Assembly (NCBI GenBank): GCA_004322275.1
Contig: SCTA01000008.1
Coordinates: 1-52,718 of the forward strand
DNA from: a bacterium
Lineage (GTDB): Bacteria; Desulfobacterota; Deferrisomatia; Deferrisomatales; BM512
Direction: 5' to 3'
DNA length: 52,718 nucleotides
This document shows, piece after piece, positions 2,094 through 21,489 of the stretch. Position 1 is the first letter of the stretch. Every line of letters begins with the position of its first letter. The notes beneath the pieces were generated by a model. The model was not told the DNA's origin. It worked only from the letters and a program-made list of their open reading frames with translations, and did no database searches. A program made the translations under genes and the position numbers.

Positions 2094-4418
2094 CTATACA
2101 AGATTGAGGCGGCGGTCTTCGCGGAGGAGTGTCTCCATCTCTTTCGTCGGCACGGGGCGGCTGAAGTAAGAGCCCTGTATCTCGTCGCAGTCCTGTTTGC
2201 GCATGAGATCAACCTGCTCCCTGGTTTCCACGCCTTCGGCGACGACTTTTAAATGCAGGCTATGGGACATGGCGATTATTGCCCTGGCTATCGCTTCGTT
2301 GTCGCGTTTGGTGGTTATGTCACGCATAAAGGACTGGTCTATTTTCAGCTTATCGAAGTGAAAACGCGACAGGTAACTTAGACTGGAGTAACCTGTGCCG
2401 AAATCGTCCATCGTAAGGCATACCCCCAGCCTTTTCAGCTCATCAAGTATTGCGGCGGCCTCGTCCGCGCCCCGCAGTACCATGCTCTCGGTTATTTCTA
2501 TATCCAGGCAGCAAGGATCGAGACCGGTTTGCCGCAAAACGAGGTCTACCAGACCGGCGATGTTGATATGTCTCAATTGCCTGACCGAGAGGTTGACCGC
2601 GACGGGGATGGGCGGCAATCCTGCTTCCTGCCAGGCTTTGTTCTGAGCGCAGGCGGTCCTCAGCACCCATTCCCCTATGGGCTCGATCAGGCCGGTCTCC
2701 TCGGCAAGAGGAATAAAGTTTCCGGGAGATACAATGCCCAGCTCCGGGTTTCGCCAACGTACCAGGGCCTCCATGCCGGTTATTCTGCCGGTACCGAGAT
2801 CGACCTTGGGTTGATAGAAAAGTATCAGCTCTTCACGTTCGAGAGCGCGACGCAAATGTTTTTCCATGGTCATGCGGGCAAAAGAAGTAACATTCATGTC
2901 TTCTGTGAAGAAACCGTAGGAATTGCGGCCCTGCTCTTTTGCCCTGTACATGGCCACGTCGGCGTTTTTTAGAAGCGTTTGCACGTCTTCGCCGTCTTTG
3001 GGAAAGATGCTGATGCCAACGCTGCAAGTGACAATGATCTCGTGCTCTTTTATCTTGATGGGCGCGGACACCTTTTCCAGTATCTTGGCCGCGATCTGCG
3101 GGATATGGGCGGTCACCTCATGCTGGGTGATGACCGCGACAAACTCGTCGCCTCCCTGACGGGCCACAGTGTCACCGGATCTGATGCAGCTCGTCAGGCG
3201 TTTGGCCACTTGTTGCAGGAGCAGGTCGCCGTGATCGTGGCCCAGGCTGTCGTTGATAATTTTGAAATTGTCGATATCGATGAAGAGTACGGCCACCTCC
3301 TGATGGTTTCGGTGCGAGACGAGAAGCGCCTGGCGGATACGGTCCGTGAGCAGGTTACGGTTGGGGAGATCGGTCAGTTCGTCGTGTGTTGACAGGTATT
3401 CCAGTTGCTCCTCGTATCGCTTGCGATCGGTTATGTCCTCCAGAGTCTCCATTACCGCTACCAATTCCCCTTCGGGGTTGCGTGCCGGAGCGGCTTTGAA
3501 ATTGATGTAGCGCCTTCGCCCGTTGAGGTTCTCGAACCATTCCTCGGCCCGAAGACCGCCCGGTATGAAGCTGGATTTTTCGATGGAGCCGTATTGATGG
3601 TGCGAGGCCACAACGTCGCCGTCTGCGACCAAATCGGCCAGGACAGGCCTTTTTTGCACGTAAAATGCTTTCCACGGCTCATCAAGGCCCATCATCGCCT
3701 CCGCACGGACTCCGGTGAGCTCTTCACATGCCTTGTTCCATATAAGGATCTTGTGTTCCGGACTTATGACGAATAGGGGAACCTCGCTGGTCTGCAAAAT
3801 ATTTTCAAAGAACATCTTTTGTTCGGCCAAGAGCCTCTCTGCGGTTTTTCTCTCGGTGATGTCGTGTATTATGGCGATGAACATCGTCACCCCACCCTGG
3901 CTGAGCTTGCTTATCGAAACCTCGGTAAGGAAACATACTCCTCCCTTGCGGCAGCCGGTGGACTCCCTCCTCGTCGTGCCGCTTCTACCCGTCCCCTGCG
4001 CCAGAAAGGGGAAATCCCCGAAGCCGGGGATGATCCGGGTGATTTTCTGTCCCATCACTTCTCCCGGTGCGTAGCCGAACATTTTTTCGGCGGCAGAGTT
4101 CAGAGACTCGATGTTTCCCCGCTCGTCGAAATAAATCACCGCGTCTTCAATGTAACCCAGAGCGGCTTTGGTGCGGGCCACCTCCGTCAGGGCTTCGGTT
4201 CTTATCGGCATGACAATAAGGCGCCAGATGAAGGGAGCACTCAAAGTAGCCAGCAAGGCTGAATCGCCTAGACTCGACAGGTAAACGGAATCCTGCTCTA
4301 CCAGGTGAGGGAGAAGCACCATTACGATTGACTCCGCCACCATTATTATCAAGAGCAGTTTGGTCAACAGCACCAACGGGTTAGGAGACCGTTGGTGAAG
4401 CACTGCATTTGTTTCCAT
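2094..4418 (-). CDS. membrane-anchored PAS-PAS-GGDEF-EAL c-di-GMP signalling protein
   Basis: The 774-residue protein has two membrane helices near the N-terminus (about 13-40 and 48-68), two PAS domains (about 80-190 and 200-330), a GGDEF domain (about 340-500) and an EAL domain (about 515-770). GGDEF is intact and is preceded at the usual five-residue distance by RSGD, the RxxD product-inhibition site. The EAL part keeps MEALVRW and DDFGTGYSSL. Both cyclase and phosphodiesterase activity are therefore possible; which dominates cannot be read from sequence. The start is the ATG at 4418 because GGAGG lies seven bases before it; a longer open frame to 4466 lacks such a site. It converges on the TMTC gene with only 75 bases between their stops and no obvious terminator. 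Confidence 0.93.
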   Translation of the reverse strand: METNAVLHQRSPNPLVLLTKLLLIIMVAESIVMVLLPHLVEQDSVYLSSLGDSALLATLSAPFIWRLIVMPIRTEALTEVARTKAALGYIEDAVIYFDERGNIESLNSAAEKMFGYAPGEVMGQKITRIIPGFGDFPFLAQGTGRSGTTRRESTGCRKGGVCFLTEVSISKLSQGGVTMFIAIIHDITERKTAERLLAEQKMFFENILQTSEVPLFVISPEHKILIWNKACEELTGVRAEAMMGLDEPWKAFYVQKRPVLADLVADGDVVASHHQYGSIEKSSFIPGGLRAEEWFENLNGRRRYINFKAAPARNPEGELVAVMETLEDITDRKRYEEQLEYLSTHDELTDLPNRNLLTDRIRQALLVSHRNHQEVAVLFIDIDNFKIINDSLGHDHGDLLLQQVAKRLTSCIRSGDTVARQGGDEFVAVITQHEVTAHIPQIAAKILEKVSAPIKIKEHEIIVTCSVGISIFPKDGEDVQTLLKNADVAMYRAKEQGRNSYGFFTEDMNVTSFARMTMEKHLRRALEREELILFYQPKVDLGTGRITGMEALVRWRNPELGIVSPGNFIPLAEETGLIEPIGEWVLRTACAQNKAWQEAGLPPIPVAVNLSVRQLRHINIAGLVDLVLRQTGLDPCCLDIEITESMVLRGADEAAAILDELKRLGVCLTMDDFGTGYSSLSYLSRFHFDKLKIDQSFMRDITTKRDNEAIARAIIAMSHSLHLKVVAEGVETREQVDLMRKQDCDEIQGSYFSRPVPTKEMETLLREDRRLNLV

Positions 4419-4852: not shown

Positions 4853-6076
4853 ATGAGAAAAAAAATTAATATATTTGTGGCGTTATTTATTTGCATTATC
4901 TTATTAATGCTCCAAGGTTGCAACGAAAGGGTAAGCGTCCCTCCTTGGGAACAAGATAACAATCCTGAGGTAAAAATAACAGCAACACCACAAGTCGGTG
5001 GAAGTGGAATAGAATACTCATTAGTTCCTGACCAGTGCCCTAGTCCTTGCCGAGTCTATGTTCCCGTTGGAGCAGAGTTTGGCATCTCAGTGAATGCTTA
5101 CAACCCCGGCGGAGTAAAGAGTTTATCAATATTGGCAACAAATGACGCCGATGGACAGATTCTCTATTCAGTTGAAGAAACATCCTCCCCAGATTCTAAT
5201 AACAAAGTCCCAAAATCTCTTTTCATTATTGGCCATAATGGAGCGGGTGGTTTTGGCAACCAGAGAATACATTTTAAACTAGATAGCATGTCAAGTAATG
5301 TGACGGTAAAAGCGACTGCATTAAATTATAATGGCATGTCAACTACCATGATAGCTTACTATCGTCCTCTAGGGAGGATTAAGGCGACACTCGAGGTATC
5401 TAAGAAAATTATACAACCTGGCGAAGAAGTGAGGTTAACTTGGGATACTGAATATGCCCACTGGCCGATAGAGTTAGTAGATGCAACCCAAGGAATCTCG
5501 CTCAATCCGCCTAACGAATCACATTTTATGACTATCCATCCAAGCGCACCACAGACAAAATATGTTCTAAGGGCTAGTAATTTTATATATGAACATTGTG
5601 CCGCTGAGGATAAGATGACTTGTCCAGGTGCAGAACATATAGAGAAAAGTGTTGTTGTAGCTCAAGGAAGCCAACCACCGGATACCTCTCAAAACAATGA
5701 GCCGATACGTATTGAGCTCATAGGTCAACCCACGGCCCCTGGTATCAATATCCAAATTCGACCCTATAAAAGCGAACCATTCATGAGCACTGTCAAACTC
5801 CAGCAAATTGAGTTTCCGTTAGACAATATTAGTATCTTCTTGGTTGGAGGGATCAAGCTACCTAAGCTATACCAAACTACAAATGATTGCCTTGACCCTG
5901 CCAAGTACGTATATTTGCCTCCAGGCGGTCGCACGACACCGCAACAGATGAAGGAGGTCTATGGATCGGAAACACCAACGTTTTATTCTGGCAGTTATCT
6001 AATTGCCTGTGTTGAACCAAAAGATATAGACCAAAAAATTGATTCCGTGGGTGTGCTTATCACTCGTGCCCCTTGA
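4853..6076 (+). CDS. lipoprotein of unknown function, AT-rich
   Basis: The 407-residue protein starts with a short basic segment, a hydrophobic core and the lipobox LMLQGC, so it should be lipid-anchored. The mature part reads as beta-rich Ig-like material (around residues 180-260 a segment like KKIIQPGEEVRLTWDT) with several cysteines. I do not recognise a family. The start is the ATG at 4853, preceded by AAAGGAGGGG at good spacing; the frame is open further upstream but without a better site. Base composition and codon choice are clearly AT-richer than both neighbours, and the gene stands alone between two inverted repeats (4550-4617 and 6106-6171), which suggests horizontal acquisition. 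Confidence 0.75.
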   Translation: MRKKINIFVALFICIILLMLQGCNERVSVPPWEQDNNPEVKITATPQVGGSGIEYSLVPDQCPSPCRVYVPVGAEFGISVNAYNPGGVKSLSILATNDADGQILYSVEETSSPDSNNKVPKSLFIIGHNGAGGFGNQRIHFKLDSMSSNVTVKATALNYNGMSTTMIAYYRPLGRIKATLEVSKKIIQPGEEVRLTWDTEYAHWPIELVDATQGISLNPPNESHFMTIHPSAPQTKYVLRASNFIYEHCAAEDKMTCPGAEHIEKSVVVAQGSQPPDTSQNNEPIRIELIGQPTAPGINIQIRPYKSEPFMSTVKLQQIEFPLDNISIFLVGGIKLPKLYQTTNDCLDPAKYVYLPPGGRTTPQQMKEVYGSETPTFYSGSYLIACVEPKDIDQKIDSVGVLITRAP

Positions 6077-6105
6077 AAATGGTTGGTAGATGTCGGTGCC
6101 GTGGT

Positions 6106-6171
6106 CGGATTGAGGAACGAAAATCCGACGCAACACATTGTATTTGTTGGATTTTCGCTATGCTCAATCCG
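6106..6171. repeat. imperfect inverted repeat after the lipoprotein gene
   Basis: CGGATTGAG and CGAAAATCC (6106-6126) face GGATTTTCG and CTCAATCCG (6149-6171), with small unpaired bulges. There is no run of T after it, so a classical terminator is doubtful. Similar hairpins are common as dispersed intergenic repeats. Apart from it and the promoter below, 6077-6395 holds nothing I can name. Confidence 0.6.
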
Positions 6172-6328
6172 GCCTGCAATTGTTATTGCCCTCGGCGGTT
6201 GGGACGGCCGTTTGAACAAGACCTCTCGCATAACGAAAAAAATCTGTTAAGTTATTCATAACGGAAGAGGTTTGACAGCGCCCGGCGGGCGTTTTCCCGA
6301 GGCCGGGACGGGGCCGGACCGGAAAATA

Positions 6329-6356
6329 TTGACTTATCCGTCTTTTCGTGCATAAT
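6329..6356 (+). promoter_or_regulatory. sigma-70-like promoter for the Bax-like gene cluster
   Basis: TTGACT (6329-6334), a 16-base spacer, then CATAAT (6351-6356). Transcription should begin near 6363, so a GTG at 6348 cannot be the translation start and the start must lie downstream. Confidence 0.6.
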
Positions 6357-6395
6357 ACGAAATCCTTTAAAGCGGCTGAAAGGCCCGGAGGTTTT

Positions 6396-7442
6396 TTGGA
6401 TTCGAGGATAAGTGAAGGGGCAAAGAAGCCGGGCAGGTTAATGACCGCCCTTAGGCCCCTTGTGATAATTATCGGAATGGCGCTGGTCCTTTACATCGCC
6501 GCGCCCGAAAAAAGCATCCCGGTCGCCGAGCCGGAGGCGGCCGGAGTTCCCGTCGCAGCCGTAGTTTACGAGCCGCAAAGGGATTTTTTCGGTCTGCACC
6601 CCTCCGATCTCTGGACGCTCGACAAACTCGTCGCTTCCGTCTGGTCGAAGGTGGAGGACAAGAACGGCGTTCCGGGTTTCGCGCCCCTTTCGATTCCCAG
6701 GGGCATCGACGAACTCCCCGCCAAGAAGCGCAAATCTCTCTTCATCCAGTCCCTCATCCCCCACATCGTCGCCGCAAACGAGAAGATCTTCGAGCGCAGG
6801 CAAGGCCTGCTGGAGATACTTGGCCACCTCGAAAAGGGAAACGTGCTGGGCGAGGTGGAGAAGGTTTTTCTGGAGGAGAGCGCCAGATGCTACGAGATGG
6901 TCTCTTTCAGCGCCAGATGGCTTAAGAACGACCCGAAGAAGGTCATAAACGGCCTTTTGAAGAGGGTGGACGTTGTTCCCCCGAGTCTCGTCGTCGCCCA
7001 GGCCGCCAGCGAATCCGGCTGGGGGGGCTCGCGCTTCGCCATAGAGGGGAACAACCTCTTCGGCCAGTGGTCTTTTTCCCCGACCAAGGGAATCATCCCC
7101 GCCGGTCTCGACGCCGGAGCGAATATCTCTCTCGCAAAATACCCCTCCATAGCCAAGTCTCTGGATTCCTATCTCACGAACATAAACACCTTCACCGCCT
7201 ACAACGATTTTCGGGAGATACGCCACAAGCTGCGGCAGAAGGGCGAAAAGCTCGACCCCGAGGCGCTGGCGCAGGGCCTTTTGAATTACAGCACCCGGCG
7301 CGAGGGGTACGTCTCGGACATACTGAAAATCATCCGCCAGAACGACCTTGCCCGCTACGACGATGCCTATCTGGTTCCCCTGCTGCCGCACAGCATCCCC
7401 GGCTCGGTGGCTGTCAGTGAGCACGGCTACCAGAATCTCTAA
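6396..7442 (+). CDS. Bax-like exported glucosaminidase-domain protein
   Basis: A membrane or signal segment (RPLVIIIGMALVLYIAAP) is followed by a glucosaminidase-type domain (PF01832 family, as in E. coli Bax). The segment AAQAASESGWGGSRF contains the expected catalytic glutamate (ESGWG), and GNNLFGQW follows it as in the family. The likely role is hydrolysis of peptidoglycan glycan strands in the periplasm. The frame is open from a GTG at 6348, but the promoter there argues against it. A TTG at 6396 has GGAGG just upstream, and an ATG at 6441 is the other option. The deacetylase gene follows after nine bases, consistent with one transcript. Confidence 0.85.
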   Translation: MDSRISEGAKKPGRLMTALRPLVIIIGMALVLYIAAPEKSIPVAEPEAAGVPVAAVVYEPQRDFFGLHPSDLWTLDKLVASVWSKVEDKNGVPGFAPLSIPRGIDELPAKKRKSLFIQSLIPHIVAANEKIFERRQGLLEILGHLEKGNVLGEVEKVFLEESARCYEMVSFSARWLKNDPKKVINGLLKRVDVVPPSLVVAQAASESGWGGSRFAIEGNNLFGQWSFSPTKGIIPAGLDAGANISLAKYPSIAKSLDSYLTNINTFTAYNDFREIRHKLRQKGEKLDPEALAQGLLNYSTRREGYVSDILKIIRQNDLARYDDAYLVPLLPHSIPGSVAVSEHGYQNL

Positions 7443-7451
7443 AGGTTCTTC

Positions 7452-8504
7452 TTGCGCGCCTTTGTAAGGGGTCTATCCTCCCTCATCCTCCTGTTTCTCT
7501 TCGCTTCCGGCGCTTTTGCGGGCGGGGACGTGCGCGTCCTCATTTATCACCGCGTCGGAGACAGCCGCTATCCCTCGACAAACGTCGCTACAGAGCTTTT
7601 CAAGACCCAGATGGAGTGGCTCCGGGAGGCGGGCTTCACCGTCATTCCCACCAAAAAGCTCGAAGGATTTTTGCTTCGGGGAGAAGATATCCCGGAAAAG
7701 AGCGTCGTAATCCATTTCGACGACGGCTACCGCTCCGTCTACCGCAACGCCTGGCCGGTGCTCAGGAAGATGGGTTATCCCTTCGCCGTGACCGTGCCGG
7801 TTTACCCCGTCGAGCGGGGGTGGAGCGACTACGCCACCTGGGGAATGCTCCGCGAGATGGCGAAGGACGGAGTGGAAATTGCCGCCCACGGCTCGGAGCA
7901 CTCGCGCCTCGGCTCGCCGAAAAAGGGAGAGAGCGGGGACGGTTATCTGGCCAGAGTCCGCGACGAGGCCGAGGCTTCGATGAGGGTGCTGAAGCGGGAA
8001 GGATTCGATCCCGCCTGGATAGCCTACCCCTACGGCGAATTCAACGAGACGGTGACAAAAGCCGCGAAGAGCGCCGGGTACAGTTACGCCTTTACGCAGG
8101 ACCCTGGCCCCGTCGCGCGGAACGTGGACAAATTCGAGATACCGCGCTTCGCGGTTGTCGGAGCGGTCTCCGATTTTGGCCTCTTCAAGGAGAGGATGGG
8201 GTACGAGCCCCTCGTACTCAAGAGTTTCGACCCCGTTCCGGGAACGGCCGCGGGCGGGAGGGTGAAAGGGTTTTCGGCGGCCGTCGAAAGCCCTGAAAAA
8301 TACCTTCCCGGCGAAGTAAACGTCTTCCTCAGCGAGGCCGGAAGGCTGAAGGCTTCCTTCGACCCCTCCACGGGGATTGTAAAAGCCGAAGGAGCGGTAT
8401 TGACGAAGCGGATAAACAGGTTGATTATTACCCTTAAATCGAGAACCTCGGGCCGTTACGCTTTCGCTTCCCGGCTGGTTCTCAACCCTGAAAAAAACGA
8501 TTAA
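7452..8504 (+). CDS. exported polysaccharide deacetylase (NodB domain)
   Basis: The 350-residue protein has a signal peptide ([13 protein letters not shown]). A NodB/carbohydrate esterase 4 domain follows: HFDDGY gives the metal-binding aspartate pair, HGSEH is the metal-binding H-x3-H motif, and YPYGEF is a later active-site strand. It probably removes N-acetyl groups from an envelope or extracellular polysaccharide; the substrate is not visible. About 80 C-terminal residues beyond the catalytic domain look like a small beta domain. The start is a TTG with AAAGG six bases upstream. It lies between a Bax-like hydrolase and a periplasmic cyclophilin, which fits an envelope-maintenance group. 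Confidence 0.9.
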
Positions 8505-8515
8505 AGAGGTTGAAA

Positions 8516-9091
8516 ATGAAGAGAATTCTGTCGGCGGTCCTTTTCTGTTTCCTTGTCTCCTCCGTTGTCTTCGCCGCGGAAGGCGCAAACCCGAAGGTAG
8601 CCCTCGATACCAGCCACGGCAAAATAGTCATCGAACTCTATCAGGACAAGGCTCCGGTCTCGGTGAAGAACTTCCTCGATTACGTCGATTCGGGTTTCTA
8701 CGATTCCACCGTCTTTCACCGCGTCATCAAGGGCTTCATGATACAGGGCGGCGGGTTCACCGCCGATATCACCCCAAAGAGCGGCCAGAAGCCCGCGATA
8801 AAGAACGAAGCCGGTAACGGCCTTAAAAACCTGCGCGGAACCCTCGCGATGGCCCGCACCGGAGTCGTAGACAGCGCCACAAGCCAGTTTTTCATCAACT
8901 CCGTCGACAATGCGTTTCTTGACCACAAGAACGAGTCTGTGCAGGGCTTCGGCTACGCCGTCTTCGGGAAGGTAATCGAGGGGCTCGACGTGGTGGACAA
9001 GATTTCCAGCGTGCCGACGGCGACGGTCAAGGGGTTCAAGGATGTGCCGTCGCAGGAAGTGGTTATCAAGAAGGCAGAAAGGCTGAAATAG
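8516..9091 (+). CDS. ppiA: periplasmic cyclophilin-type peptidyl-prolyl cis-trans isomerase
   Basis: The protein has a signal peptide ([17 protein letters not shown]) and a complete cyclophilin domain. [15 protein letters not shown] contains the catalytic arginine, and SQFFINS and [12 protein letters not shown] match the rest of the fold. It speeds proline isomerisation in exported proteins. The start is the ATG at 8516, six bases after AAAGAGG; a TTG six bases earlier is in frame but overlaps that site. It follows the deacetylase gene by 11 bases, probably in one transcript. The symbol reflects the exported type; exact orthology to E. coli ppiA is not shown. Confidence 0.93.
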
Positions 9092-9093
9092 GA

Positions 9094-9120
9094 CCGGCTT
9101 CCTCTTTCGGCGAAGGGCGG
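9094..9120. repeat. 27-bp direct repeat just after the ppiA stop
   Basis: This 27-bp sequence (beginning CCGGCTTCCTCTTTCGG) is identical to 14152-14178, and in both places it follows a stop codon closely. At 14152 it forms one arm of a long hairpin; here the downstream pairing is less regular. The remainder of the gap to 9270 holds no gene. Confidence 0.85.
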
Positions 9121-9270
9121 CGTTGCGCCGGATACGTTCCGGATTCAGTAAGGGCGCATACCCGGTAATCCGGCGGCCTTGTAAAGGCCCTTCCGGTGTG
9201 CTACCCTGACTGGGTGGTAAAATGCCGTAAAATCAGGAAATTCCGGCTTTTTTGAACGCTGGAGGGCAAT

Positions 9271-9591
9271 GTGTCTCCGGACAACGACGCTTCTGACAGG
9301 GATACAAAAAAGGGTTCTTTGCCGCCGGCTGATTTCTCCGGTTTCATCGTCAGCCTCGCGCAGGCGGCCGCGATACACCTCGGAGAGGTTCCAGACCCCT
9401 CCACGGGCGTAAAATCGCGCAATATCGCCCAAGCCCGTTACTCCATAGACCTTCTGGACATGATCGCCGAAAAGACCCGCGGCAATCTCGACACGGAAGA
9501 GCAGATGCTCATCGAACGGCTCCGCAGCGATCTGAAGATCATGTTCGTGCGGGCTTCCAAAAGCCTGGCCGGGGTAAAAAGTGAGCCATAA
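9271..9591 (+). CDS. DUF1844 family protein
   Basis: The 106-residue protein matches the small DUF1844 family: LPPADFSGFIVSL, then HLGEVPDP, and a helical C-terminal half with EKTRGNLDTEE. Members are short, soluble and common in deltaproteobacteria and related phyla; no function is established. The start is a GTG with GGAGGG a few bases upstream. Its last 11 bases overlap the start of the TPR membrane protein gene, so the two are translationally coupled. Confidence 0.88.
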   Translation: MSPDNDASDRDTKKGSLPPADFSGFIVSLAQAAAIHLGEVPDPSTGVKSRNIAQARYSIDLLDMIAEKTRGNLDTEEQMLIERLRSDLKIMFVRASKSLAGVKSEP

Positions 9592-11401
9592 GGCGGCCGG
9601 AGGAGCCAAAATCAACCGAATCCGGCTTAACTGGCTGAAACCGGCTTTGGTTATGGCGGCTCTTTTCCTCGGAGCAAACGCCCTTGCGCTGCCGGCGGAG
9701 TGGAAGAGACTCGCCGAGGACCCCGGCGACGAGGCGAAGCTCGCCCTGGCGATAAGCCACGAAAAGGTGAGGGGCGGCTTCTCCGACATGGTTCCCCTCG
9801 CCAACGCCTTTCTCGAAGAGGCGAAGTCCGCGCCGTCTCCGGAGATAGCGGCGAAGTATCTCAAGGGAGCCGTCCTTTGCGCCCCCTCGGAGCCTCTGGT
9901 TCACGCCGCCACCCTTAAAAACGCCGTCGCCCTTTCGGACTGGGATACCGCCTTTCGCTCCGGAAAGCACCTTTTCGACACCCTCTGGTCCGACCCCTGG
10001 TTTCTTATCGCCCTGCCGGTCCGTCTTTCTCTCGCCTTTTGCCTTGCGGGCACGATAGCGGCGGCAGGTTTTCTCATAACCCTTTTCCCCTACTATTTTT
10101 CGATATTTTTCCACGATTACAGAGATCTCTTCCCCGTGCGGTTCAGGCGGTACCTGCCTAACGCTTCCCTGGCCCTCGGGGTTTCCGTGGTGCTTGCGTT
10201 CGTGCCGGGGATACTGGCGCTCTTTTTGCTGGCGGCTTTCCTTATCGCCGTCTACCTGCCCAGAAAAATTCTAGTCCTCTTCACCGCGGTCCTTGTCGTT
10301 TCGGTCCTCTCCCTCTCCGTGCTGAATTACACCGCGCGCCTTACCGGAGCGCCCGGGGAGAGAAGCTTTCTGCTTTACAGGGTTTCCAAGGGGGATTTCG
10401 GGAGCGACCTCGAAAGAGAGGTGGCGGCCGCTTTCTCCGAGAACGAGTCCGAAAGGATGCTTTTGGATTCCATTCTCGCAAGAAGAAGGGGCGACCTGGA
10501 TTCGGCGCTTCAAAGCGCGCGGTTCCTTTTGATTAAAGAGCCTGAAAACGACCTTGCCCTAATGTACGTCGGCAACATACTTCACAGGCAAAAAGACCCC
10601 GTCGGCGCAATAGGGGTCTACGAGGAGGCCGTAAAAGCCGCACCTGATAACTGGATGGCTTTCTACAACCTTTCGATGCTCTACACGCTGCGCCTGAATC
10701 TCGTCAACAGCCAGACGGCCATGCAGGCGGCGGAGGCTCTCGACGCCAGGGCCATGCAGAAGTATGAGATAAGCGCGCCGGTGATACCGGGAGAGATAAA
10801 CCTGGCCGAGCCTCACCTGCCTGTCAGCCTCATCTACAGCCAGCTTTCCCGGCCGGTGGAGACCTCCGGCTGGCTTTCCGACGCCTGGCGTCTCTTCGGC
10901 GTCTCAAAGTTCAAATTCACACCCTATTATCTCGCCGGACTCATCCTTGTGGTGATGGGGCTCGCCTGGGGGGCGAATCGCAGCCGTCTTTCGGTGCGGT
11001 GCATAAGCTGCGGCTCGATAAAGTGCCAGAAATGCCACCCGCGCGGCAGGTCGCCGCTCCTTTGCGACGCCTGCTGGTCGCTTAAAAACGCTTCAAACAT
11101 GGATGAGACGAACTTAAAGAGAAGACGCGAGGCCGTGCAGGCCTGGACCCGGAAGTTTTCGAGGTTCAGGAAGGCCGGTTCCATCCTTTTTCCGGGATTC
11201 AGCAGGTTCATCGCCGAAGGAGGAGGGGTTTTCAACGTTATCCTCGGCCTCGTCTGGGCGTTTTCCCTGGCCTGGTTCCTCTTCTCCCTGTTTGCCCCGC
11301 TTCCGGTTTATTTCTACGGCGCAGCCTCCTTCCCGTGGGGCGCTTTCGTCATACTGACGCTTTGCCACGTCATTTCCATCCGCACCGGCGAACGGCTCTA
11401 G
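9581..11401 (+). CDS. TPR-containing multi-spanning membrane protein with cysteine cluster
   Basis: The 606-residue protein has an N-terminal signal or anchor segment and a soluble helical part. Several membrane spans lie at about 135-235, and a TPR-like helical region at about 280-385. Another membrane span near 445-462 is followed by a cysteine-rich knot (CISCGSIKCQKCHPRG, then CDAC) and two terminal spans. The cysteine pattern looks like a small zinc ribbon; one CQKCH in it formally matches a heme motif, but its place after a membrane helix among other CxxC pairs favours zinc. The GTG start overlaps the DUF1844 stop, and the DUF4388 gene follows after 12 bases. Function unknown; probably a membrane scaffold. 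Confidence 0.7.
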   Translation: MSHKAAGGAKINRIRLNWLKPALVMAALFLGANALALPAEWKRLAEDPGDEAKLALAISHEKVRGGFSDMVPLANAFLEEAKSAPSPEIAAKYLKGAVLCAPSEPLVHAATLKNAVALSDWDTAFRSGKHLFDTLWSDPWFLIALPVRLSLAFCLAGTIAAAGFLITLFPYYFSIFFHDYRDLFPVRFRRYLPNASLALGVSVVLAFVPGILALFLLAAFLIAVYLPRKILVLFTAVLVVSVLSLSVLNYTARLTGAPGERSFLLYRVSKGDFGSDLEREVAAAFSENESERMLLDSILARRRGDLDSALQSARFLLIKEPENDLALMYVGNILHRQKDPVGAIGVYEEAVKAAPDNWMAFYNLSMLYTLRLNLVNSQTAMQAAEALDARAMQKYEISAPVIPGEINLAEPHLPVSLIYSQLSRPVETSGWLSDAWRLFGVSKFKFTPYYLAGLILVVMGLAWGANRSRLSVRCISCGSIKCQKCHPRGRSPLLCDACWSLKNASNMDETNLKRRREAVQAWTRKFSRFRKAGSILFPGFSRFIAEGGGVFNVILGLVWAFSLAWFLFSLFAPLPVYFYGAASFPWGAFVILTLCHVISIRTGERL

Positions 11402-11413
11402 AGGTAAAAAGCC

Positions 11414-12388
11414 ATGTCCTTTGAAGGCTCACTGGAATCATTCGGAATAGGCGAGATATTCCAGCTCATAGCCAGTCAGGCCAAGACGGGCGTCCTGGAG
11501 ATAACCACGGAAGAGGGTTCCGCGATAATCCGCTTCGTGCGCGGCCAGATCTTCGACGCAATCCCGCCGACCAAGGACCCAAACAGCGCCATCGGCGTGA
11601 TGCTGGTGCGGGCGGATCTGATCACCAAAAAGCAGCTCGATTACGCGCTGGACCTCCAGCACAGGAATCTGAGGAGGCTCGGCGATACCCTCATCAGGAT
11701 GGGAGCGATACGCACCAGCGAGTTTCAGGCGATGCTGGCCCTCCAGAGAAGGGAACTGGCCTTCGGTTTCCTTCGGCTCCGGCGCGGCCATTACAAGTTC
11801 ACCCCCTCGGACGTGGATTACGAGGAGGGAGTCGATACCCTGATGAACGTCGACGCCGTCCTCATGGAGGGGTCAAGGCAGCTTGACGAGTGGCCTGCGG
11901 TACTGAAAAGAATTCCCTCCGACAAACTCGTCTTCAGGGTGGTCGAGGGGAAGACTCCTCCCGAAGGGTCGCCCGAGGAGGACGTAGAAGTCTTCCAACT
12001 CGTCAACGGCGAGCGCACGGTAAGAAAGATTATCGACGTAAGCAGGCTCGGGGAGTTCTCCGCCTGGGATTCCATGGCCAACCTCTATGACGGCGGTATC
12101 ATAGAGGCGGTGCGCGAAACCCGCGCGGCCAAGCCGCAGGCGGAAAAAAAGCCCGTCAAGCTGCTCGAAGCCACCTTCGCGGATACCGCCCTCTCGGCCG
12201 TGGCGCTTTTCGCCACCCTCTTTTTTCTCGCCACCGCCATCTTCAGGGGAGGTCTCCTCAACCTCTCCATATTCTCCATACCTGTGGACGCGGCGAGGGA
12301 GTACCATTCGCTCGAAGCCAGAAGCCTCAACTGGAGCCAGAGAATGCCGGCGAAATATCCCCCGGCGAACGTTCCCGAGCGCAAGTAA
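11414..12388 (+). CDS. DUF4388 (PATAN) domain protein with C-terminal membrane helix
   Basis: The first about 120 residues match DUF4388/PATAN: MSFEGSLESFGIGEIFQLIA, then GVLEI and RFVRGQIFDA. Such domains accompany bacterial signalling systems, often next to two-component or GTPase proteins, as interaction modules. A second, less clear helical part follows to about 235. A hydrophobic span (ALSAVALFATLFFLATAIF) near 255-275 then anchors it, with about 45 residues on the far side. It belongs to the run starting with the DUF1844 gene. Role inferred as a membrane-tethered signalling adaptor. Confidence 0.82.
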   Translation: MSFEGSLESFGIGEIFQLIASQAKTGVLEITTEEGSAIIRFVRGQIFDAIPPTKDPNSAIGVMLVRADLITKKQLDYALDLQHRNLRRLGDTLIRMGAIRTSEFQAMLALQRRELAFGFLRLRRGHYKFTPSDVDYEEGVDTLMNVDAVLMEGSRQLDEWPAVLKRIPSDKLVFRVVEGKTPPEGSPEEDVEVFQLVNGERTVRKIIDVSRLGEFSAWDSMANLYDGGIIEAVRETRAAKPQAEKKPVKLLEATFADTALSAVALFATLFFLATAIFRGGLLNLSIFSIPVDAAREYHSLEARSLNWSQRMPAKYPPANVPERK

Positions 12389-12433
12389 AACCAGCTTGTC
12401 TGACGGCGCAGGGACGCAAGAACCCCACCGGAC

Positions 12434-13207
12434 ATGATAACCGTAGCCGAAAACCTCACAGTAACCGATCCCCGCGTGCAAAGGGGCGTCCTGGAAAGGG
12501 ACGCCGGTCTCATAGCGGCCGTCGCCCGCGAATGCGCCGGGACCGACTTTCTGGACGTGAACCTGGGCCCCGGCTCGCGCGACTTTGCCGGGAAACTCGA
12601 CTTCGTACTCTCGGCCCTTGAGGGTGTCTGGGAGGGCGGCATCTTTATCGATTCCACCGACGCGAAGCTCATGGAACTGGCAGCGAAGAGATGGGGCGGC
12701 CCGGTGGTGCTGAACGGCTACGCCGGAGGAGGCGGCAGGGAAGGGGTTCTTGAGGTATCCGCCCGGTACGGTCTGCCTCTGGTGATTTTCCTGATGGACA
12801 AAACCGTTCCCGCGAGCGTCGAAGAGAGGCTCGCCCTTCTGGCCGTCCTCGTCGGCAACTGCCAGAGCGCGGGGATACCCCTTGAGAGGATTATAGTGGA
12901 CCCGGTGGTCGCCCCGATGGGGTGGATGGACGGTCAGGCCAGAAACGCCGGGCTCATCGAAGTCCTCCGGCAGATTCCGCAGCTTTTCGGCGAGCAATTG
13001 CAGAGCATCGTGGGCCTCTCGAACCTCGTCACGCGCTCCACGGGGGGAAAGAGGGTGGATTTCATGATGGAGGTCTTCCTGTCCATGACGGCGGGGGCGG
13101 GACTTACCCACGTAATGCTCGACGCCCGGAGCGAGAGTCTTCTTCGCACGGCAAAGGCCATTTCCGTTCTCAGGGGGGAGCGCGCCTTCGCTCCCGGAGA
13201 ATTCTGA
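12434..13207 (+). CDS. pterin-binding (AcsE/MtrH-like) methyltransferase-family protein
   Basis: The 257-residue protein looks like the TIM-barrel pterin-binding family that includes dihydropteroate synthase and methyltetrahydrofolate:corrinoid methyltransferases. Visible landmarks are DFLDVNLGPGSRD near residue 37, FIDSTD near 72, VLNGYAGGGG near 91 and GLSNLVTRS near 192. The absence of folate-synthesis neighbours and the DVNLGPGSRD motif favour a corrinoid-linked methyltransferase over dihydropteroate synthase, but I cannot show the corrinoid partner. Its stop overlaps the next ATG by one base (TGATG), so it is coupled to the Ppx/GppA gene. Confidence 0.65.
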   Translation: MITVAENLTVTDPRVQRGVLERDAGLIAAVARECAGTDFLDVNLGPGSRDFAGKLDFVLSALEGVWEGGIFIDSTDAKLMELAAKRWGGPVVLNGYAGGGGREGVLEVSARYGLPLVIFLMDKTVPASVEERLALLAVLVGNCQSAGIPLERIIVDPVVAPMGWMDGQARNAGLIEVLRQIPQLFGEQLQSIVGLSNLVTRSTGGKRVDFMMEVFLSMTAGAGLTHVMLDARSESLLRTAKAISVLRGERAFAPGEF

Positions 13208-15652: not shown

Positions 15653-18149
<2,497 letters not shown>

Positions 18150-18153
18150 ACAT

Positions 18154-18253
18154 GGCTTCGGCTTTTGCCGCGGGGCGAAGCCTGCCCTCGGAATCTTTTA
18201 CCGGGGGTCGCTTCTCGCTCGCGCTCTTCGCCCGGCGGCAAAAATCCTGTGCC
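18154..18253. repeat. long imperfect hairpin after the serS stop
   Basis: Arm 18154-18180 (GGCTTCGGCTTTTGCCG...) faces 18226-18253 (CTTCGCCCGGCGGCAAAA...). It begins five bases after the serS stop, the same placement as other members of this palindrome family. The rest of the space up to 18356 holds nothing I recognise. Confidence 0.7.
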
Positions 18254-18356: not shown

Positions 18357-19617
18357 TTAATGTTGTATTGAGTCTGAGAGTAAATGCACCCCGAGGAGTC
18401 TTCGCACCGTTTTTTCGCGTTCTATCCCTATGCGTTTTTTAATATTATCATACCGACCAATATAAGATTTAATGAGCCCGTCTATTATAGGGTCTATATG
18501 TTCTATTGCTTGTCGATCTGTGCAAAATGAGTACTGGTTTCCCCATCCTTTAATAATATTGTTTACATGGTATAGGGTATCAACAAGTGTCGTACGGTTT
18601 ATTGCTAAATTAGCAGGGTTCTTGCGCATATCAGCAATGCTATTATTGAATAGGTCGGTTACTGTTTTTACCATCCTAGCTCTTGATTCTCTTGATGGTG
18701 CGATAAGACCCGGTGCTATTTCGCAACCCAGAAAGCGAAACTTTTTACTTGTGGCCCCACACTCTGTTTTCGATCTATCATCAAGGCCATACGCCTCTAA
18801 CCCGTGCCCTTGCAATATTTTAAGTGCTTTGTTGTATGCCTTATGTCCATCATCCTTACTTTTAGCAAGTATTATAAAATCATCGACATATCTAAGGCAG
18901 GCTACATTGTCTTTATTCATTTCTATGTCAAAATCATGAAGTAAGACATTACCCAAAAATGGAGACAAACAACATCCTTGAGCGACTCCAATTTCATTTA
19001 TGGGAAAAAGGTTTGCATTTTTGCCAAGTTGGTCAAGATTAGACAATTCTGTAGTGATGGCGTGCTCTAAGAGCACCAAAAATTTTTCATCGTCCGGTAG
19101 TATTTTTTTTTAAAACTTCCAAAACGGTAGGCTTTGGAATCTTGCAAAAAAATGATTTTATATCGGAACGAATAAAATAGGATGCACCATCTTGGACATG
19201 ACGGTAGGACGACAGAACAGCGTCCCTAGTTGATATTTTTTGATCTGGTATCTTTATACATCCAAAACTGGTTTTTACATCTATATACTTTTGTACTTCT
19301 TTCCTAGATTGCAAAACATCTAATATAGCTCTTTTAACAACCCTATCTCCAATTGTGCTTATTACTATTGGTCTAAGAGATTTTTCCCCAGGTTTTTTAA
19401 TCGTAACCCCTTTTGAGGGGGAAAATTCATACTGATTTTTCCGTAGGTTATTAGAAATATCATTCAAATTTTTTATAAAATTTTGCTCGAATTTTTTGAC
19501 ATTCTCTTTTGTTTCTTTTGAAGAGCCTTGGCTAAGTCCGTTTTCACGGACTACCTTCCACGCTTCATAAAGTAAACTTTTATTCTTAATTTTTGTGTAT
19601 AGAGGATTTTTAGACAA
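18357..19617 (-). CDS. solitary reverse transcriptase (UG/DRT-like candidate), frameshifted at an A9 run
   Basis: Joined across one frameshift, this encodes about 419 residues of reverse transcriptase and no added endonuclease domain. Motifs in order are LRPIVISTIGDRVVKRAI (block 1), RSDIKSFF (block 3, catalytic Asp), VAQGCCLSPFLGN (block 4), CLRYVDDFIIL (block 5, catalytic YVDD) and KFRFLGCEI (block 7). The retron hallmarks I know are not visible, and YVDD rather than YADD argues against a standard group II intron protein. The N-terminal style (YEAWKVVRENGL) recalls stand-alone defence RTs; class is not assigned. The frame breaks at nine adenines (19103-19111 on the plus strand); removing one base gives VLKKILPDDEKFLVLLEH and an intact protein. 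Start is a TTG at 19617. Base composition is far AT-richer than its neighbours, indicating transfer. Confidence 0.85.
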
Positions 19618-19800
19618 GAAGCACTCTCTGTGATACCGAGCCCTATCGATTAACTCACGGCTCAGCTGTTAGAAAGCTTCACCCTGAGGGGGTACCTACT
19701 TGAGGCACTTCCCACCCGAGGCTCGATTTCTGAGTCTCGGAGCATTCTCGATGTTGTGCGACGCGTTGCTGCGTCCCGCTCCATGAGGATGCCAGAATGA
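19618..19800 (-). ncRNA. structured leader / candidate noncoding RNA upstream of the reverse transcriptase
   Basis: The 183 bases between the promoter and the RT start fold by eye into several helices (minus strand). Helix I is CATTCT (19799-19794) with AGAATG (19748-19743), enclosing GACGC/GCGTC (19775-19760). Helix II is CCGAG-A-CTC with GAG-C-CTCGG (19740-19716). A short ACCC/GGGT stem lies near 19690-19681. Helix III is GAAGC (19680-19676) with GCTTC (19622-19618), enclosing GAGCC/GGCTC, and it closes directly beside the TTG start. There is no open frame in it. Defence RTs of the DRT2, DRT3 and DRT9 types use an adjacent noncoding RNA as template or cofactor; assigning that role here is inference. 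Confidence 0.5.
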
Positions 19801-19807
19801 CACTTGT

Positions 19808-19837
19808 CCTATAACATAATTTTGGATGGAATGTCAA
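19808..19837 (-). promoter_or_regulatory. sigma-70-like promoter with extended -10 for the reverse transcriptase
   Basis: On the minus strand TTGACA (19837-19832) is followed after 18 bases by TATAGG (19813-19808), which is preceded by a TG one base upstream, the extended -10 form. Transcription should start near 19801 and give a leader of about 184 bases. Confidence 0.6.
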
Positions 19838-19841
19838 GTAT

Positions 19842-19855
19842 TGTGGTCGACCACA
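19842..19855. promoter_or_regulatory. perfect 14-bp palindrome abutting the RT promoter (operator candidate)
   Basis: TGTGGTCGACCACA is a perfect palindrome that ends four bases upstream of the -35 box of the RT promoter. Such placement suits an activator or repressor site. No regulator gene is adjacent. Confidence 0.4.
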
Positions 19856-19991
19856 TACCTACCCCCAAGATGTTGTAGAGCAGTGGCTTTGCCAAATGAA
19901 ATATAAAGATGAAACTCACCTGCTTCGAGTGTTTAATCGCTCAACCACAACCTACGCTCGTATGACTTTTCTCCGCCGTCGGATATGACTC

Positions 19992-20111
19992 CCGGCGCGG
20001 TTTTCCGTTCCCGGCAAGGAATCCCGCAGCGAAAGGGCGAGCCAGTAGCAGCGCTACGGCGAGCCCTTGAGCGAGGACATGACGAAGCCGGGGGCGGAAA
20101 GGATGCGCCGG
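19992..20111. repeat. long palindromic repeat, family B, copy 1 (without nested insertion)
   Basis: Ends CCGGCGC (19992-19998) and GCGCCGG (20105-20111) and the following bases pair into a long imperfect stem. The centre carries CAGTAGCAGCGCTACGGCGA (20043-20062). Read on the minus strand it begins 10 bases after the stop of the Omp85-like gene. The reverse complement matches both flanks of 28605-28863, where a 163-bp element sits in the middle. The interval 19856-19991 holds no gene. Confidence 0.85.
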
Positions 20112-20121
20112 ACTAGAAGGG

Positions 20122-21372
20122 TTACATCTCCCACGGATACTGGAAAAAGACGCTCGGCTGGAACCCTTCATGTCCCGTAGCCAAGTCCACCCTGTAGATA
20201 AGGCCCGAGCCGGTAACGAGGCGGATGCCGGTTCCGTAAGCGGAGCGGGAGATGTCCCAGAGGTCGCTCCGAAGGTCGGCGACGGAGCCTATCTCGTAGA
20301 AGAAGGCGATCTGGATCGCGGTGCGGATGTCCTTCATGATGAAGATGTTAAAAGGCGTCCGCTCGTCGGTGAGGTTCCAGCGAAGCTCGTTGCCTATGAA
20401 CTCGGCGTGCGCGCCCCTGTAGCGCCCCTCGGGGTAGGCGCGGAGCCTGCCGTACCCTCCGAGGGCGGTCGCGGTTCCGAAGGTGTTTTCCGCCACGATG
20501 TTGTCGATGTACTGCTCGCACTCTTGCCTGTCGGAAAGGTCGGTTATCGAGCCGCAGTCAAGTCCCTGTTCGTCGGCGATTACGGCGGGATCGGTCTCTC
20601 CCTTGCTTATTACGTAGGCGTCGGAGCGAAAGTAGTTGAGCACCCAGGTGCTTCTCTTCCCCAGCGGCAGGTAGCCCGTAGCGTTGAAGTCGATGAAGTA
20701 AAAATCCGGCCCCGAGTCGCGCGGCGGATTGTGCCAGTAACTCGATTCCAGCCGCAGGCCCCTTCGCGGGTCGGTATAGTCGTCGGTGAGATCGACGCGA
20801 GCGCCGTAGATGGCCGTAGTGATGTGCTCCTTCGGGGTACCCTCGGCTTCTATTATTACGTCGCCGTCCCGGTCGCGCACGGCGCTGAGGCGGGTTGTTC
20901 CCGCGTAGTAGCCGAGGTAAACCTCGAACCTCCTGTCCGCGAAGGTCGCCGTCAGACGCGACCCCCCGAAGACGGAATCCCCCAGTTCCGCGAGCACGTA
21001 GTCGTTTTTTTCGGTATCCATTCCGCGCTTGGCGTAGGACTGGATAGTGGCGTTACTGAGGTGCGCCGCGCCGAGGTCCAGAATCAGGCGCTCTTTTACA
21101 AGCTCCACGCTGTTTATGCCTAGGGCTTCCCCGTCAACGTCTCCCGCGAAAAAGGTTCCCATAAGGTCGGTGGTCGAGCCCCCTACGTTGGTGGTGGCTC
21201 CCAGGACCCCGTAGCCGGAGCCTATTCCCGGCAGGTCGAAGACGTAGGGAAATATCGCGTAACCGGAATCGTTCGAGTACTGGAGCCGCCGCCTTTCGGG
21301 GTATATGCCGGGGTCGCAAAAGGCCGTCGAAGCCGTCAGGGCCAATAATACTCCGATAACCGCGTGTTTCAT
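20122..21372 (-). CDS. outer-membrane beta-barrel protein (Omp85/bacterial surface antigen-like)
   Basis: The 416-residue protein has a signal peptide (HAVIGVLLALTASTAFC) and alternating hydrophobic strands throughout with many aromatic residues. The C-terminal half resembles the PF01103 surface-antigen barrel shared by BamA and TamA: DDYTDPRRGLRLE, GGYGRLRAYPEGRYRG (with the RGYP-like turn) and GTGIRLVTGSGLIYRVDLATG. No POTRA domains precede it, so it is a short barrel rather than BamA. A small pair C-x-C residue set (CGS...ECEQ) may form a disulfide. Start is the ATG at 21372, six bases after GGAG; the open frame further upstream has no signal. It may export or insert envelope proteins; role unproven. 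Confidence 0.78.
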   Translation of the reverse strand: MKHAVIGVLLALTASTAFCDPGIYPERRRLQYSNDSGYAIFPYVFDLPGIGSGYGVLGATTNVGGSTTDLMGTFFAGDVDGEALGINSVELVKERLILDLGAAHLSNATIQSYAKRGMDTEKNDYVLAELGDSVFGGSRLTATFADRRFEVYLGYYAGTTRLSAVRDRDGDVIIEAEGTPKEHITTAIYGARVDLTDDYTDPRRGLRLESSYWHNPPRDSGPDFYFIDFNATGYLPLGKRSTWVLNYFRSDAYVISKGETDPAVIADEQGLDCGSITDLSDRQECEQYIDNIVAENTFGTATALGGYGRLRAYPEGRYRGAHAEFIGNELRWNLTDERTPFNIFIMKDIRTAIQIAFFYEIGSVADLRSDLWDISRSAYGTGIRLVTGSGLIYRVDLATGHEGFQPSVFFQYPWEM

Positions 21373-21489
21373 CAAGGCTCCGGGATTCAAACTTGCGAAA
21401 GAAGAAAAGACGGGCGGCAATCACATGATCGCCGGAATGAAGAGTAACGCCAGGGGGGAATTCACAAAAGACTTATTTTCGGCAGGCCG

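Follow-up and report, generated by a model that had tools for sequence, protein, structure and literature searches.

The stretch of DNA analysed here (hereafter 'the window') comprises 52,718 nucleotides of contig SCTA01000008.1 from a 45-contig draft assembly (GCA_004322275.1) of a bacterium placed by GTDB in the Deferrisomatia. Our subject is a stand-alone reverse transcriptase (RT) gene on its minus strand, together with the structured RNA leader that precedes the gene and the related loci with which both were compared. Read along the minus strand, the unit begins with a 14-bp palindrome (19855-19842), followed by the hexamers TTGACA (19837-19832) and TATAGG (19813-19808) of a sigma70-like promoter, the leader, and the RT gene from a TTG codon at 19617. 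The promoter (P1; 19808-19837, minus strand; TTGACA-N18-TATAGG) agrees with the consensus at 10 of 12 positions with a spacer of 18, and has a counterpart in one of the relatives described below (L003; TTGACA-N17-TAGCAT). The G+C fraction of the unit is 0.385, as against 0.58-0.61 in its flanks. An earlier sequence-only reading of the window had described an AT-rich minus-strand unit with such a promoter, a folded leader, and a solitary RT with intact catalytic motifs, no endonuclease and no accessory gene nearby; our analysis bears out each of these points, with no accessory gene visible beside the RT in the open reading frame (ORF) list of the window and no constant partner gene.

The RT gene (18357-19617, minus strand) is read in two frames, frame 1 from 19617 to 19087 and frame 2 from 19085 to 18357, which when read through give a protein of 419 amino acids carrying the motifs SDIKSFF and YVDD. 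The change of frame amounts to one insertion or deletion at a run of nine adenines (A9; 19103-19111, minus strand), the longest homopolymer in the window. The RT frame is unbroken in all seven relatives, the A9 site included. Nine adenines is a length at which transcriptional slippage occurs in bacteria, and decay, a sequencing error and slippage are all possible causes of the frame change. Neither the RT nor its leader was found a second time in the window genome. Because the gene combines a frameshift with a leader that holds a single copy of a repeat (R) and lacks the segment (B) found in longer leaders of its relatives, we think that the window copy is probably decayed, and it may not work. 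We nevertheless consider it very improbable that the RT is a mere broken pseudogene with no present function. The A9 frameshift, the missing B and the lack of a second RT or leader copy would all agree with that account, whereas the promoter, the leader fold, the hairpin pairing and the catalytic residues are intact, and the A9 shift could stem from polymerase slippage or assembly error.

Comparison with known proteins indicates, with high confidence, that the enzyme is a group II intron-like 4 (G2L4) RT, a class described previously (PMC4244168). In a search of PDB sequences, the window protein matched both G2L4 crystal structures with 253 bits over residues 6-415, while the next match reached 64; a Pseudomonas relative scored 402 bits against the same structures, and a profile built from seven family members scored 454 against G2L4 versus 125 against the best group II intron RT. 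A maximum-likelihood tree with RTs of the host phylum as outsiders united all G2L4 members, the window protein and PDB 9d5x among them, in a single clade with 100/100 support. Pfam recognizes only RVT_1 in the window protein, with a weak maturase tail, and the chain ends after the thumb, with neither a Pfam endonuclease nor a D domain. Motif 4 contains the AQG triplet (GVAQGCCLSP). Motif 5 reads YVDD in the window, YIDD in all eight other clade members, and YADD or FADD in the outsiders. The RT3a insertion, which in G2L4 is nine residues long and carries a pair of arginines that plug the active site, is mostly present but two residues shorter, with the arginine pair replaced. Given the homology and the position within the clade, and since the change to YVDD is conservative and the copy broken, we still file the window protein as a G2L4 RT, though a deviant member.

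This placement supersedes the proposal of the sequence-only reading that the enzyme could belong to one of the UG/DRT groups. Several other classes were rejected. The Drt2 profile gave 25 bits (cut-off 390), derived from the second-frame part only. A group II intron is disfavoured by the lack of any credible Rfam family, intron RNA included, and by TIGR04416 scores of 70 and 84 bits against a cut-off of 300. In a diversity-generating retroelement (DGR) the repeats should differ at adenines; those of the relatives described below do not, and the RT motif is QGCCLSP rather than the SQ form. Membership of UG17, which corresponds to DRT10 (PMC12632851), was rejected as well, and the possibility that the enzyme is a UG17 member or near relative making tandem-repeat complementary DNA (cDNA) from a short leader template appears to us extremely improbable. 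The UG17 profile is the second best in PADLOC, the structured leader is of comparable size, and LGVHLLxDS at the C-terminus is reminiscent of the priming serine that DRT10 carries at its own C-terminus (PMC12632851). On the other side, the generic RT profile of PADLOC outscores UG17 (157 versus 150 bits) and G2L4 scores far higher than either, the SLATT gene is absent from the ORF lists and the annotation, and the Pseudomonas and L046 members have alanine or glycine where the serine would stand.

Seven relatives were found (L003, L014, L045, L046, L052, L053 and L062), and the comparison thus covers eight loci in all, two of which (L014 and L045) are near-alleles. L003 belongs to a metagenome-assembled genome (MAG) of the Nitrospinota, and a search of that phylum yielded three further loci, L052, L053 and L062. 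L045 is a Pseudomonas-like contig from IMG/VR, and L014 lies on a Pseudomonas aeruginosa plasmid, in an island behind a tRNA-Ser gene. That island (5000-12811) carries, along with the G2L4 RT, a recombinase, a TIR-domain protein, an inovirus-type Gp2 and an integrase; the plasmid record is 847 kb long and contains housekeeping genes too (purC, dapA, bamC). L046 (1-6073) is a phage contig in which the G2L4 RT unit is cargo between the terminase gene and an SU10-type portal gene. Adjoining the L052 RT unit is a gene for a 737-aa protein with no Pfam or PADLOC match (L068, 10454-12667), in a region that also encodes a conjugative coupling protein. Of the 395 genomes searched in the phylum to which the window belongs, the window genome alone reached the family score, and those lower-scoring matches that the tree included lie outside the clade. 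The plasmid search returned the Pseudomonas record only, phage records and E. coli gave no family member, and the locus of the crystallised G2L4 RT was not found in the collections searched.

The leader RNA of the window (19612-19809, minus strand) is closed by a terminal stem (GGACAAG / CTTGTCT). Its predicted fold has an energy of -79.7 kcal/mol, compared with -62.1 +/- 4.7 for dinucleotide shuffles (z -3.7; none of 200 shuffles was as good). From promoter to RT it aligns end to end with the leader of L003 (score 74, null maximum 34), the two RTs being 41% identical; alignment with the L052 leader gave a score of 34 (null maximum 32). Directly before the RT lies a conserved 3' hairpin (GCTGAGCC ... 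GGGCTCGGT; 19635-19666, minus strand), for which comparison of six loci revealed that five of nine pairs have undergone compensatory changes, with 48 of 54 cells paired. The sequence-only reading had proposed a search for a conserved upstream element with covariation among homologues; the leader is conserved, and the compensatory changes lie in its 3' hairpin.

In six of the seven relatives the leader is longer and runs in the order P1, R1, B, R2, hairpin, RT, where R1 and R2 are two copies of the repeat. In the four loci with complete pairs (L014, L045, L046 and L052), R1 and R2 are identical over 132, 134, 133 and 131 nt, respectively; they are spaced 353-376 bp apart, and the unit lengths are 376, 353, 361 and 367 nt. 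Upstream of the L053 RT (from position 2830), long runs of N mask parts of both copies, as if the repeat was withheld or not resolved by assembly, and those ends of R that can be read occur twice. In L062 the contig breaks off within R1, and the 78 bases of it that are available match R2, which sets the identity there at 78 nt or more. Repeats were found on both sides of the G2L4 tree. The sequence of R has diverged between distant loci, and each pair must therefore have been kept identical within its own locus. Comparison of the near-alleles L014 and L045 gave identities of 100% for R1, 97.8% and 91.5% for B, 100% for R2, 98.5% for the hairpin and 77.8% for the RT; everything from R1 up to the beginning of the RT has hardly changed, and the outer flanks align poorly. 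We conclude from these alignments, with high confidence, that the leaders of the relatives contain identical repeats.

Inspection of B revealed parts of an ORF in permuted order: a C-terminal part with its stop codon comes first, then a promoter-like site (P2), then a start codon with the N-terminal half. In each of the six loci whose B can be read, the top-scoring promoter-like site of B has the same position, 19-36 nt ahead of the start codon, and P2-like sites read TTGACG-N16-TAGCAT, TTGAAA-N16-TAAACT, TTGACA-N16-TAAAGT, TTGACA-N16-TATCAT and TTGCCA-N15-TATGCT. The DNA of the start region (TGCAAAAACGTGC) is identical in L014, L045, L052, L053 and L062, and the N-termini share MQKRA (LQKRA in L053, where the start codon is CTG, not ATG) and a hydrophobic stretch. 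In the genomic arrangement, the ORF from this start crosses R2 and ends a few codons later, at 64-80 codons. When R2 is instead joined to the sequence that follows R1, the frame stays open, in every locus whose pair can be read, to the stop in B shortly ahead of the start codon, giving 121, 121, 115, 116 and 112 codons in five relatives; in L046, the longest ATG-initiated ORF has 123 codons and begins eight codons upstream. The chance of such a joined ORF when B is shuffled is 0.14, 0.04, 0.045 and 0.036 per independent locus (about 0.003 by Fisher's method). L052, L053 and L062 resemble one another in their C-terminal halves when these are read in the frame of the hidden ORF (p < 0.0005), with clear frame specificity for L052-L062 and L053-L062. 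Because the two halves join in frame across R2 and the sequence after R1, the gene appears to be present in the genome in circularly permuted form, opened inside R and with R in duplicate at its ends. A search for phage homologues of the hidden protein returned none. The enzyme class itself is already known, and upstream repeats, an RNA partner or a split gene are not described in the G2L4 literature that we considered (PMC12337344, PMC13015716, PMC4244168, PMC4424553), within which a split gene between identical repeats is thus unreported; an earlier mention elsewhere is possible.

The window leader, by comparison, consists of P1, one R and the hairpin, and L003 is of the same short type. The single R (19679-19795, minus strand) is open in the hidden-ORF frame (LASSWSGTQQRVAQHRECSETQKSSLGWEVPQVGTPSG*, the asterisk denoting the stop) up to a TGA at 19681-19679 directly after R, an ending that resembles the R2 side of L052 (TPTGV*) and L053 (APTG*). 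B and the 13-nt start motif are absent from the window, in which one distant site with two mismatches is at chance level, and no second leader copy was found elsewhere in the window genome or in that of L003. Nor did the window and L003 leaders contain short A-B-A' patterns in the manner of DRT10 or DRT2, with no repeats of 7 nt or longer and no convincing template. The single-R state may reflect either recombination between R1 and R2 or collapse of the repeat in assembly. The first of these could be the whole story: recombination or end joining between R1 and R2 at the DNA level, perhaps helped by the RT, would remove B and leave the single-R form, with or without a circle bearing the whole gene. 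The P1-R-hairpin-RT order of the window and L003 is precisely what such a deletion should leave, the contig name of L003 (k141) suggests that its assembler could resolve a repeat shorter than 141 nt, and G2L4 RT promotes annealing at microhomologies (PMC12337344). We judge this account improbable even so, since a deletion by itself could not be undone and would not account for a structured RNA, and trouble with assembly at R is common, given the N runs in both copies of L053 and the contig end within R1 of L062 (L003 being a MAG and the window genome a draft).

We propose instead that the G2L4 RT assembles the split gene from RNA by strand transfer between the repeats, in a manner similar to that of DRT2, a proposal that we hold to be evenly poised. 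P1 would drive transcription of the RNA; the RT would bind it, begin near the hairpin, and copy R2, then B, then R1. Once R1 has been copied, the cDNA end could anneal to the identical R2 and synthesis go round again, generating tandem [R-B] DNA, on which P2 would drive expression of an intact protein of 112-121 amino acids with a hydrophobic N-terminus. The window would represent a decayed or recombined member, left with P1, one R, the hairpin and a frameshifted RT. Strand transfer fits what is documented of G2L4, because strand annealing and snap-back synthesis are its favoured activities (PMC12337344). The weakest step concerns the product: the hydrophobic N-terminus, together with carriage on phage, island and plasmid DNA, suggests that the joined protein is a membrane-active effector of defence (most likely by abortive infection) or of competition.

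Several observations weigh against gene assembly. The case for it is made from sequence, at the eight loci and with the two near-alleles counted among them. The window and L003 lack B and one repeat, and in L046 both B and the hairpin match the other loci poorly. L052 and L053 score equally well in a frame other than that of the hidden ORF, and L052 and L014 score better there; between L014 and L045 the ORF shows seven nonsynonymous and two synonymous codon changes; and the hidden protein matches no Pfam family above cut-off. Finally, the literature considered assigns G2L4 to double-strand-break (DSB) repair, with no repeats or RNA partner (PMC12337344).

That last point leads to the most serious competing explanation. 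The G2L4 RT of P. aeruginosa is a free-standing, dimeric and annealing-prone enzyme with a reported role in DSB repair by microhomology-mediated end joining, and its genetics, biochemistry and structures are published (PMC12337344). On this account, the enzyme would be a host repair factor, the leader a cis-regulatory 5' untranslated region for RT expression (in favour of which the hairpin lies directly before the RT start), and the repeats regulatory or a by-product. It leaves unexplained, however, why perfect repeats of ~132 bp recur at a fixed distance in distant loci, why the leader is conserved above the enzyme (92-100% versus 78%), why there is a permuted ORF with an internal promoter, and why the unit is carried in islands and in a phage contig (terminase-portal). 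We consider it unlikely, while taking it seriously. A bolder reading, in which G2L4 RTs would constitute a gene-assembling system of immunity or of competition between elements, with DSB repair a side activity of an annealing-prone enzyme, is offered tentatively and with somewhat less than even credence.

Turning to the surroundings of the window locus, the neighbours of the RT unit are an ORF at 16743-18149 (read as serS) and an outer-membrane-like gene at 20122-21420. Its left flank, just past the serS-like ORF, contains a repeat of ~77 bp (18154-18230) with two further copies in the genome, and its right flank a dispersed repeat of ~120 bp (19989-20112), of which the window genome has over 30 further copies, most of them 85-97% identical. 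Comparison with the relatives yielded no clean empty site for the RT cassette. The palindrome upstream of P1 (TGTGGTCGACCACA, perfect over 14 bp; 19842-19855), which the sequence-only reading had called operator-like, is present as described, but perfect 14-bp palindromes occur six times in the window and this one by itself is therefore no more than chance would give, making it weak on its own as a possible operator. Upstream of P1 in L045 is an 18-bp perfect palindrome (GACACATCATGATGTGTC; 3352-3369) that parallels it, and the two are a possible site for a common regulator.

Among known systems, the P. aeruginosa G2L4 RT (PDB 9d5x, 9d4s) is the closest to the window enzyme, with full-length homology, the AQG triplet, membership of the same clade and the same short RT-thumb protein devoid of a D or endonuclease domain; the window differs in having YVDD for YIDD, a shorter RT3a insert that lacks the arginine pair, and a frameshift. 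If the proposed role is correct, a published DNA-repair enzyme with crystal structures would be recast, and two traits of G2L4, its bias towards strand annealing and the plug in its active site, would gain a natural purpose. With DGRs, which have paired template and variable repeats, the relatives share only a pair of ~130-bp repeats near an RT gene. In long terminal repeat (LTR) retroelements, R regions at both ends of the RNA allow strand transfer, and the direct repeats described here would likewise let a nascent cDNA jump from the 5' to the 3' end; the parallel is one of logic, as neither an integrase nor gag was seen, nor any mobility of the R-B-R unit. DRT10 (UG17) performs RNA-templated repeat addition through an A-B-A' arrangement (PMC12632851), which is analogous in principle in that repeats are added through a repeated sequence, but its A and A' are 2-4 nt long whereas the repeat here is ~132 nt, and no SLATT partner is present.

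The nearest parallel in outcome is DRT2 (UG2), whose neo gene exists only after repeated reverse transcription has joined the ends of its template (PMC12039810), and which, within the literature considered, is the sole RT proven to make a gene that the genome does not contain in directly readable form. In both systems the RT lies directly downstream of a structured RNA, and a gene is completed by joining template ends, as shown for DRT2 and proposed here for G2L4; an ORF that becomes complete only upon joining was found in five relatives, the window having no B. The RTs are nevertheless of different classes, and long identical repeats here stand in place of the ACA motifs and looped template of DRT2. 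The G2L4 ORF furthermore has the same sense as the RNA, ends at a stop of its own and has its promoter intact in the genome, and because the units of 353-376 nt are not divisible by three and the ORF has that stop, the joined frame would not be endless as it is in DRT2. If our proposal holds, a second, unrelated RT class would harbour hidden genes, pointing to a recurrent strategy that could be sought in genomes by a simple signature: identical ~132-bp repeats before an RT gene, with an ORF that is in frame only across the repeat.
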